Source of the DNA: Candidatus Puniceispirillum sp.
Lineage (GTDB): Bacteria > Pseudomonadota > Alphaproteobacteria > Puniceispirillales > Puniceispirillaceae
Length of the DNA stretch: 64,000 nt
NCBI GenBank assembly: GCA_028382965.1
Contig: JAOEUK010000009.1
Coordinates: forward strand, 1-64,000
Direction of reading: 5' to 3'
The position numbers were made by a program, and so were the translations under genes. How positions within the stretch are numbered: position 1 is the first letter of the stretch; every line of letters starts with the position of its first letter. The notes under the pieces were generated by a model, which was given only the letters and a program-made list of their open reading frames with translations, was not told the origin of the DNA and searched no databases. Of the stretch, positions 28,396 through 32,028 are shown in pieces.

Positions 28396-29715
28396 TTAAC
28401 GTGAAAACTCAGGATAAGCATCCATTCCAAGCTCAGAACTATCCAATCCTGCAAGTTCATCCTCTTCACTAACACGGATACCAAAAATCTTATTGATAAC
28501 AAACCAAACTATGAATGAAGCGACAAAAGTAAAAGCTCCAACAATTACAATTGACGTAATCTGAGTACTAAAGCTCGCATCAGAGTTGGTTAATGGAACT
28601 GCAATTGTTCCCCAAATTCCTGCTAGCAAGTGCACTGGAATAGCACCAACAACATCATCAATTTTCATTTTGTCGAGCAGTGGTACCGCAAAAACAACGA
28701 TAACTCCGCCGACACACCCAATAAGCGTTGCAACTCCCAGAGTAGGAGTAAGTGGCTCAGCAGTAATTGAGACGAGACCCGCAAGGGCACCATTCAAAAC
28801 CATTGTCAAGTCAGCCTTACCATACAAAAGCTGAGTGAGTACCAAGGCGATCAAGGCTCCTCCCGCAGCAGCCGCGTTTGTGTTCGCAAAAATTCTGGAA
28901 ATATCAGCCACGTCTCCAACGGATCCCATAGCTAACTGTGAACCACCATTAAAGCCAAACCAGCCCATCCAAAGAATAAAAGTGCCTAAGGTTGCCAGCG
29001 GAAGGTTAGCGCCGGGCATGGCTACAACTCGACCATCCTTATACTTTCCAAGCCTTGGACCTAAGATCAAGGCGCCCGCCAATGCCGCCCATCCACCGAC
29101 TGAGTGAACAACAGTTGACCCAGCAAAATCAAGGAAGCCCATGTCATCAAGGAAACCACCACCCCATTTCCAACTAGCTTGGAGCGGGTATATCAGCGCT
29201 GTCAATATGAAAGTGAACAAAAGAAATGGCCAAAGTTTGATACGTTCGGCTAAAACTCCAGATACTATCGAGGCTGTTGCAGCACAGAACATTAGTTGGA
29301 AAAAATAGTCTGAGCCCGTAGCTGCATAACTAAGATCATCTACCTTATCAGGAGCAACTCCAACCGCTTCGAGCACTGCTGTCACTGGTAATAAACCAGA
29401 GAGCACTCCCTCAATAGACCAGTTTCCTAAAGGGTACATTAAATTGTATCCAACAAGATAATATCCAATAGCAGCCAATGAGAATAATGAAATATTTTTG
29501 GTTAATTGCATGGTTGTGTTTTTAGCCCTAACAAGCCCAGCTTCCAACATACAAAAGCCACAAGCCATAAACATAACTAGAAATCCAGACATTAAGAAAA
29601 GAAGAGAATTCAAAATGAATACACTTTGCTCAGGTACCTCTTGCGCAAATGCTGGACTAGCAATCAAACTTGCAAACCCAGCTAAACTCATATGTTTTAA
29701 AAATTTTTTGTACAT
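28396..29715 (-). CDS. amtB: Ammonium transporter
   Basis: The 439-aa Amt/MEP/Rh-family channel has a cleavable-type signal (ending SPAFAQ) followed by 11 membrane segments. Family signatures are seen: FMACGFCMLEAGLVRAKN near 55, FAGSTVVHSVGGWAALAG with the first pore His, and IPVHLLAGIWGT with the second. It takes up ammonium under nitrogen limitation and is blocked by GlnK. I chose ATG 29715, six to seven bases after AGGAG, over an in-frame TTG two codons earlier. It lies 22 bases after glnK, the classic glnK-amtB operon. Confidence 0.95.
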   Translation of the reverse strand: MYKKFLKHMSLAGFASLIASPAFAQEVPEQSVFILNSLLFLMSGFLVMFMACGFCMLEAGLVRAKNTTMQLTKNISLFSLAAIGYYLVGYNLMYPLGNWSIEGVLSGLLPVTAVLEAVGVAPDKVDDLSYAATGSDYFFQLMFCAATASIVSGVLAERIKLWPFLLFTFILTALIYPLQASWKWGGGFLDDMGFLDFAGSTVVHSVGGWAALAGALILGPRLGKYKDGRVVAMPGANLPLATLGTFILWMGWFGFNGGSQLAMGSVGDVADISRIFANTNAAAAGGALIALVLTQLLYGKADLTMVLNGALAGLVSITAEPLTPTLGVATLIGCVGGVIVVFAVPLLDKMKIDDVVGAIPVHLLAGIWGTIAVPLTNSDASFSTQITSIVIVGAFTFVASFIVWFVINKIFGIRVSEEDELAGLDSSELGMDAYPEFSR

Positions 29716-29737
29716 TATCAACTCCTAATTTACAGGT

Positions 29738-30076
29738 TTAGAGGGCGCTTTCACCATTTTCATTCGTACGAATTCGCTTCACATCCTGAAGATCGAATGT
29801 AAAAATTTTTCCATCACCAATTTTTCCAGTGCTGCTAGCAGCTTTGATCGCTTCAACTGTCTTTCCAGCCATTTTAGCTGTCACGGCAACTTCAACTTTC
29901 ACTTTTGGAAGGAAGTGAACGGTGTATTCAGCACCGCGATAAATCTCACTTTTTCCCTTTTGCCTGCCATAACCCTGAACTTCAGTAACGGTCATACCAG
30001 AAACCCCTATGTCTAGGAGCGCTTCATGGACAGCGGTTAATTTACCCGGCTGAATAATTGCAAGAATATATTTCAT
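29738..30076 (-). CDS. glnK: Nitrogen regulatory protein PII (GlnK)
   Basis: The 112-aa PII trimer subunit senses ATP/ADP and 2-oxoglutarate. The T-loop carries the uridylylation site Tyr in YRGAEY (residue 51). The B-loop TGKIGDGKIF (about 83-92) binds nucleotide. It binds AmtB and signals to GlnE and the Ntr system; glnE is in this window. The gene is first of the glnK-amtB unit. Its 5' region of about 160 bases contains a GC-rich foldable leader unlike its AT-rich surroundings, suggesting post-transcriptional control. Confidence 0.95.
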   Translation of the reverse strand: MKYILAIIQPGKLTAVHEALLDIGVSGMTVTEVQGYGRQKGKSEIYRGAEYTVHFLPKVKVEVAVTAKMAGKTVEAIKAASSTGKIGDGKIFTFDLQDVKRIRTNENGESAL

Positions 30077-30235
30077 GTTTTGTCCTTTCCTATTGGCTCT
30101 TTTGCCGCCTCCATTGAAAAAAAGACATGTGAGTATTTCTTTTCAAGGGACTCCGGGGGAGGATCCCCGGAACCATCAGACCTGCGGTATGAGCCGATAT
30201 CGAGGACATAACACCTAGTTGTAAAAATTAATTCT
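30077..30235 (-). promoter_or_regulatory. Structured leader of glnK-amtB (candidate RNA element)
   Basis: The transcript upstream of glnK folds strongly. GGTTCCGGGG pairs with CCCCGGAGTC around an ATCCTC loop (within 30143-30171), including two G-U pairs. A weaker CGG/CCG stem lies just 5' of it. The segment is markedly more GC-rich than the neighbouring DNA. A GTG-started 66-codon frame also crosses it and ends in ATGA at the glnK start, so a coupled leader peptide cannot be excluded. I do not recognise a known riboswitch class. Confidence 0.45.
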
Positions 30236-30252
30236 GCTAAGTTTGCATAAAA

Positions 30253-30273
30253 GTGATGCAGTTTTTGCATCAC
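30253..30273. promoter_or_regulatory. Palindrome between glnK and the LysR gene (LysR-type operator)
   Basis: GTGATGCA and TGCATCAC, perfect eight-base arms, flank GTTTT. The inner TGCA-N5-TGCA has the T-N11-A form of LysR-family binding boxes. It lies 58 bases upstream of the LysR start in the intergenic region shared with glnK, so it could serve autoregulation, or control of glnK-amtB. Confidence 0.5.
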
Positions 30274-30331: not shown

Positions 30332-31264
30332 ATGCGTTTCATGACTACACTTAATTACATTGATGCCGTAGCTCGTGAAAAATCCATTCGCAAAGCGGCA
30401 GAAAAACTTGCCATAACATCCACAGCGTTAAACCGCCGAGTTTTGCAAATTGAAGATGAAATTGGGCAACCCTTGTTTGAACGGCTTGCATCAGGAGTGA
30501 GGCTTAATACAGCTGGGGAGTTGTTTGTCCAACATATCCGCACTCAAAAAGCAGAGCTTGCTCGCGTAAGGTCGCAGATTGCTGACCTGTCGGGAATTCG
30601 CCGTGGCCACGTTAAAATTGCAAGTGGGGCTGACACAATGCGGCATTTTTTACCTGAAACAGTTGCCAATTATCGCAATGAACATCCCGCCGTCACATTT
30701 GATCTGTTTCATAAATCAGGTCAAGAAGCAGAAAGAGCATTACGTGAGCTAGAAGTCGATATAGCATTTATTTTTGAACCCATCAAAAGTGTTGATTTTC
30801 AAACAATGGCAACCGCCCGTCAGCAGTTACACTGTATTATGTCAGCAACCCATCCACTGGCAAAAAAAGAAGTGCTGCGGTTGCGGGACCTGGCAGGTCA
30901 GCCCGCAATCTTACCACGCGAAGACACGGGAGTTCGACAATTGCTGAATGTTGGATTAATCCAGCGCAATCTTGAATTAGGAATCATAATCGAATCAAAT
31001 GATCAAGAATTTGTACAAAATTATCTAACCCAAGAATTAGTGATATCGTTTCAGATCCCTATTGCATTGCCAAAAAGTGTTGCCGTCGAGAACAAAGGTA
31101 AAAATAACATTGTCGCGCGGCCTGTTGATCTTACAGATGTACCAACAGGTATATTACATGTTGGCCAGCTGAAAGGGAGGGTTTTACCTGTTGCTGCGGC
31201 AAAGTTCTTGGATAGAACCATTACTAACTTAAGCGATCGTTATGGACATAATCTTGACCAATGA
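30332..31264 (+). CDS. LysR-family transcriptional regulator
   Basis: The 310-aa protein has an N-terminal winged HTH (residues about 1-60: TLNYIDAVAREKSIRKAAEK, then LNRRVLQIEDEIGQPLFER) and a C-terminal LysR substrate-binding domain. Its ligand and targets are unknown. ATG 30332 (MRFMTTLNY) is preferred over a TTG 16 codons upstream because the HTH begins there. It is divergent from glnK-amtB, with an operator-like palindrome between, which makes nitrogen-related control possible but unproven. Confidence 0.9.
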   Translation: MRFMTTLNYIDAVAREKSIRKAAEKLAITSTALNRRVLQIEDEIGQPLFERLASGVRLNTAGELFVQHIRTQKAELARVRSQIADLSGIRRGHVKIASGADTMRHFLPETVANYRNEHPAVTFDLFHKSGQEAERALRELEVDIAFIFEPIKSVDFQTMATARQQLHCIMSATHPLAKKEVLRLRDLAGQPAILPREDTGVRQLLNVGLIQRNLELGIIIESNDQEFVQNYLTQELVISFQIPIALPKSVAVENKGKNNIVARPVDLTDVPTGILHVGQLKGRVLPVAAAKFLDRTITNLSDRYGHNLDQ

Positions 31265-31377
31265 TCAATAATACTAAAACGAATAAACTGGATTTTACAA
31301 GGCAATCAGGATAATACTTTGTTTTTTTCAGTGATGATTTATAGCGATTGTCAATCGCTTGATTGGAACTAAAAGCA

Positions 31378-32028
31378 ATGACAGCAACTCCACTTCCTAA
31401 ATATTTGTCACAACGATATCTCGGTTGGAAAGCAACAAAGTACCAAGAAAACAAGGCTTGGTTCCGTCACCTAGCCGATATGGGCCAGCACCCCAGAGCT
31501 ATGGTTATTTCCTGCTGTGACAGCCGGGTCCATGTTACAGCAATTTTTGGATCTGATACGGGTGAATTTTTTATTCATCGTAATATTGCCAATCTTGTAC
31601 CACCCTATCAACCAGATGGCGACCATCATGGAACTTCAGCAGCTGTCGAGTATGCAGTTACTACGCTGAAAGTCGCACATATAATTGTACTAGGTCATTC
31701 AAATTGTGGCGGTATCAATGGCTGTTATGACATGTGTTCTGGAGCCGCACCCGAGCTCGAGCAAACATCGAGTTTTGTTGGTCGTTGGATGGATATTCTT
31801 CGCCCTGGCTATGAGCGTGTAAAAACCCTCGGCACAAGAGAGGAACAAATTATTGCCCTAGAGCGGGAGGGCGTGATTGTTTCGTTAGAAAATTTGATGA
31901 GCTTCCCATTTGTCCAAAAGGCTGTTACGGCTGAAACCATGTCACTTCATGGCTTATGGAACAACATTGGTGAAGGTACCCTTTTCTTTTATGACCCAAA
32001 AGCCACTGATTGGAAGCCTGTAGATTAG
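31378..32028 (+). CDS. Beta-class carbonic anhydrase
   Basis: This zinc enzyme interconverts CO2 and bicarbonate. The 216-aa protein has the beta-class ligands: Cys and Asp in SCCDSR (Cys46, Asp48), then His and Cys in GHSNCGG. The helical N-terminus (YLSQRYLGW) and length are normal. ATG 31378 (MTATPLPKY) is favoured over a TTG five codons upstream. It follows the LysR gene on the same strand by 113 bases. A separate promoter is likely. Confidence 0.95.
   Translation: MTATPLPKYLSQRYLGWKATKYQENKAWFRHLADMGQHPRAMVISCCDSRVHVTAIFGSDTGEFFIHRNIANLVPPYQPDGDHHGTSAAVEYAVTTLKVAHIIVLGHSNCGGINGCYDMCSGAAPELEQTSSFVGRWMDILRPGYERVKTLGTREEQIIALEREGVIVSLENLMSFPFVQKAVTAETMSLHGLWNNIGEGTLFFYDPKATDWKPVD

Follow-up and report, generated by a model that had tools for sequence, protein, structure and literature searches.

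A putative 5′-proximal hairpin in the glnK-amtB leader of a SAR116-like bacterium and its relatives

The mRNA of glnK and amtB may carry a lineage-specific hairpin close to its 5′ end that affects its stability or expression. This reading receives a probability of about 0.55. Under it, the copy in the window (the whole stretch of 64,000 nt that was analysed) is divergent, and the mRNA start, the homology and the role are inferred. The sequence-level support consists of the hairpin, its place, the covariation in relatives and the conserved promoter region. The SAR116 lineage is widespread in the sea, and glnK-amtB provides a main route for ammonium uptake. With its covariation, its lack of an Rfam match and its LysR-type promoter, the leader hairpin is a candidate, open to testing, for nitrogen control at the post-transcriptional level in SAR116.

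Gene neighbourhood and predicted promoter

The following features surround the leader:

28396–29721, minus strand: amtB, ammonium transporter (PF00909)
29738–30076, minus strand: glnK, P-II protein (PF00543)
30077–30198, minus strand: predicted untranslated leader of the glnK-amtB mRNA, about 122 nt, start deduced from the operator and the extended −10 element
30083–30090, minus strand: Shine-Dalgarno-like GGAAAGGA of glnK, predicted to be unpaired
30114–30146, minus strand: predicted second hairpin, A/U-rich (UUGAAAAGA...UCUUUUUUUCAA), not shared by aligned genus members
30145–30177, minus strand: window hairpin, putative counterpart of the hairpin of relatives (HP2), with GA/UU and GG/CC lower pairs, bulged U30150, UUCCGGGG/CCCCGGAG and loop AUCCUC, from folds and alignment with relatives
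30205–30213, minus strand: predicted extended −10 element TGTTATGTC; TGNTA stands at the same spacing in family leaders
30235–30271, minus strand: operator GATGCAAAAACTGCATC-N7-TGCAAACTTAGCA, two T-N11-A boxes of LysR type, conserved in relatives, with putative LysR binding
30332–31264, plus strand: divergent LysR-type regulator gene (PF00126 and PF03466)

The domain assignments of GlnK and AmtB confirm the view of the earlier note that the region is the 5′ side of a nitrogen-control operon. When named genomes are compared, GlnK has its best match, with 71% identity, in a MAG of the SAR116 cluster, and the host genome appears SAR116-like. For the LysR-type gene, ATG 30332 is favoured over the mechanical TTG 30284; the MRF.. 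start is common to relatives. For the 25 NCBIfam families listed, its protein scores under the cut-off of every named one. A carbonic anhydrase (PF00484) is encoded downstream of it, at 31363–32028 on the plus strand.

Two T-N11-A boxes are the form expected for a LysR-type operator. The box form and the divergent LysR-type gene together point to LysR binding. Relatives are most similar to the window upstream of the leader, across GTGATGCAAAAACTGCATCAC...TGCAAACTTAGCA. The search pattern for the −10 element demanded TG but not TA. TG was located 21 nt past the operator in 40 of 44 family leaders, and each of these 40 has TA where it is expected. The conserved operator and the extended −10 (TGNTA) at fixed spacing predict an mRNA start near 30198. 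In the predicted fold of the leader, the Shine-Dalgarno region is open. A terminator search made no call in the transcribed leader; its two calls correspond to the operator palindrome.

A weaker relative of the two-box operator lies just upstream of urtA, a urea ABC transporter gene (TIGR03407), in the same genome (L160 877–933, G000:C18). The occurrence of operator-like boxes at both glnK and urtA suggests a LysR-type nitrogen regulon. The genome also encodes RpoN (PF04552, G000:C23:189574–190050), although the conserved promoter region of glnK resembles a LysR-type one with an extended −10.

The window hairpin

The stem GGTTCCGGGG/CCCCGGAGTC has ten pairs, including two G-U pairs, and a six-base loop. 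It is located at 30149–30174 on the minus strand, with arms and loop in the order GGTTCCGGGG-ATCCTC-CCCCGGAGTC (DNA letters). Hairpins of this kind are rare by chance. Both strands were scanned for hairpins with at least 10 bp, at least seven G-C pairs and a loop of 3–8 nt. The window contains three, the GGTTCCGGGG stem among them. Of 20 dinucleotide shuffles of the window, 17 contained no such hairpin, two contained one each, and the remaining one contained two. The hairpin is single-copy genome-wide at up to three mismatches, which argues against a repeated or mobile hairpin. An exact 20-base match in another family (L032) belongs to an unrelated locus.

The earlier note had described the ten-pair stem with flanking helices in a 174-nt segment. 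This segment folds with −51.7 kcal/mol (z = −3.06). The stem was found again. Since the mRNA is predicted to start near 30198, about 50 nt at the upstream end of the segment probably belong to the promoter, as does one flanking helix. In the long fold, the outer helix TGTCCT/AGGACA shares bases with the predicted −10 and so is probably not transcribed. A long-range TGTCCT/AGGACA helix masking the Shine-Dalgarno sequence was ruled out by the same overlap of its 5′ arm. Folded from 30200, the leader reaches −38.8 kcal/mol with z = −2.07; another shuffle set gives z = −1.65.

Comparison with the leaders of relatives

A GlnK relative is present in 56 of 61 family genomes, and the upstream regions of 49 glnK loci were compared. 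The leaders of five genera share HP2, in which a stem of five pairs with a single bulged base on the 3′ side is followed by a GCC/AAA internal loop and an upper helix that varies. The motif in the g1, g3, g4 and g11 leaders runs from GGA through the stem, GCGCC, a variable loop and AAAAGAC to the second arm of the stem. The g8 leaders have a comparable hairpin whose upper helix is strong.

Pairing is maintained while the sequence changes. In 12 leaders, the six-pair helix is 97.2% paired with nine two-sided changes. None of 500 shuffles reached this value, and slid helices were at most 35% paired. Across alignments, compensatory changes occur at two to four stem positions. Adding two g8 sequences gives four pairs with two-sided changes; as g8 was brought in on visual inspection, this part of the evidence is less independent. 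In a structural alignment built by hand from 16 leaders, that of the window among them, 47 of 50 pairs are formed over 10 distinct stems. One of 20000 permutations was as high, a figure that is not a true probability as the related sequences are non-independent. The hairpin of relatives changes its letters at the same place and yet stays paired; it is therefore likely a functional RNA element.

Covariance models were used for a wider search. With model R2, the held-out leader L044 was recovered at its correct position with E 0.005; L043 gave a weak match of E 0.92. In the 136 genomes searched from the order, strong matches to model R1 were confined to glnK leaders. Five weaker matches (E 4e-4 to 0.05) were inspected, and the best two were in unrelated coding sequence. 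Among 385 genomes of the class, seven matches outside the family were located in other contexts, with no adjoining P-II gene seen, and were judged to be chance. HP2 was not detected in g2, g7 and g10, whose leaders have other hairpins. The genera without a detected HP2 still keep the glnK-amtB pair and the operator.

The window hairpin occupies the HP2 position: it lies within the leader, downstream of the conserved promoter and ahead of glnK. In a sequence alignment with seven genus members that CGGCTCATA-CCGC-AGG anchors, five of the six HP2 pairs are formed in the window. The GCC/AAA internal loop of relatives is UCC/GGA in the window and hence paired, as part of the long GC stem. The lower stem has a bulged U in the local fold, but its pairs are rare in the full-leader ensemble, which prefers other partners. 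Neither R1 nor R2 detects the window copy. Over eight genus members, the exact window stem is paired in 50% of cells and thus not conserved. These three observations, the ensemble, the models and the exact stem, are the reason to regard the window hairpin, with moderate confidence, as a divergent counterpart of HP2 and not as a full member. The covariance analysis of glnK leaders suggested in the earlier note had two outcomes: compensatory changes were present at the same place in relatives, and the exact stem of the window was neither conserved nor recovered by the models. Conservation of the whole window fold was unsupported in the genus comparison.

Proposed function and alternative explanations

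In the SAR116-like family, transcription of glnK-amtB would begin from a promoter of LysR type with an extended −10 element, giving an mRNA with an untranslated leader of roughly 75–160 nt. HP2, about 15–35 nt from the predicted start in five genera, would be an RNA element near the 5′ end of the mRNA. By protecting this end, or as a site for a protein or nuclease, it may determine how stable the glnK-amtB mRNA is or how strongly the genes are expressed. The anatomy of the leader makes this the best fit. HP2 begins 17–35 nt past a point just beyond the −10, and its distance to the ATG varies from 68 to 141 nt. That its spacing is kept to the predicted start, and not to the ATG, favours an action near the 5′ end over one at the ribosome site. 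In the window species, the GGTTCCGGGG hairpin would have kept its place and most lower pairs, with UCC/GGA pairs replacing the internal loop. HP2 is an example of a leader element with a stable position and a rapidly changing sequence.

The most serious alternative concerns the window species, whatever HP2 does in relatives. Its hairpin could be an incidental, fast-drifting, GC-rich structure without function. The missing covariance-model match, the unconserved exact stem and a leader fold that beats shuffles only moderately are consistent with this. The rarity of such hairpins, the occupation of the HP2 position and the exchange of the internal-loop bases of relatives for pairing bases speak against it. 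A functionless hairpin is thus considered unlikely, though it keeps a substantial minority share of the probability.

Far less weight is given to HP2 as an undescribed cis-regulatory RNA of SAR116-type bacteria, whose internal loop would bind a nitrogen-status signal, a metabolite or a protein, with a rewired version in the window species. Slightly less probable still is a riboswitch or other ligand-sensing leader for nitrogen-status control of glnK-amtB. A covarying hairpin with conserved unpaired bases ahead of a nitrogen gene would suit a riboswitch. These unpaired positions are few, however, the internal loop is lost in the window copy, and other genera retain gene pair and operator without HP2. 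The open Shine-Dalgarno sequence and the lack of a called terminator in the transcribed leader also disagree with it. Glutamine-sensing RNA control, raised in the earlier note, is unsupported on the same grounds, including the lack of detection in g2, g7 and g10. Rfam provided nothing credible for the leader at gathering or E-value thresholds, glutamine riboswitches included; the statement that it matches no known riboswitch has held.

A 66-codon leader peptide ending in ATGA at glnK was rejected as highly improbable: an open frame exists from GTG 30273 to a TGA overlapping the glnK ATG, but it begins at the operator edge, upstream of the predicted −10, has no Pfam match and is often closed or startless in relatives, where similar C-terminal residues result from the Shine-Dalgarno sequence.

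Hairpins near the 5′ end are known to stabilise mRNA, as in the 5′ UTR of E. coli ompA. The leader described here is similar in having a hairpin near its (predicted) 5′ end and a ribosome site predicted to be open. Unlike the ompA type, HP2 has conserved internal-loop bases and covaries within one family. The glutamine riboswitches, the glnA and Downstream-peptide motifs of Rfam, are also located in leaders of nitrogen-assimilation genes, but differ in shape from HP2. Candidate structured RNAs of Pelagibacter ubique include an amtB-adjoining intergenic region in a table (PMC2704228). This is also a marine alphaproteobacterium, but of a different lineage; the text mentions neither SAR116 nor glnB, and a shared motif was not seen. 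A literature search found no report of such a glnK leader.

Other hairpins accompany HP2 or occur in leaders without it. Right after the predicted start, only some relatives show a clear first hairpin, which g8 lacks. The genus members L035–L041 have a third hairpin just before the Shine-Dalgarno sequence, of CGGCAU/AUGCCG or UGGUA/UAUCA type, with weak covariation. The g2 leaders (L061–L063, L145, L149, L056 and L059) have their own conserved hairpin of CUGUCGC/GCGACAG type before the Shine-Dalgarno sequence, with compensatory changes.
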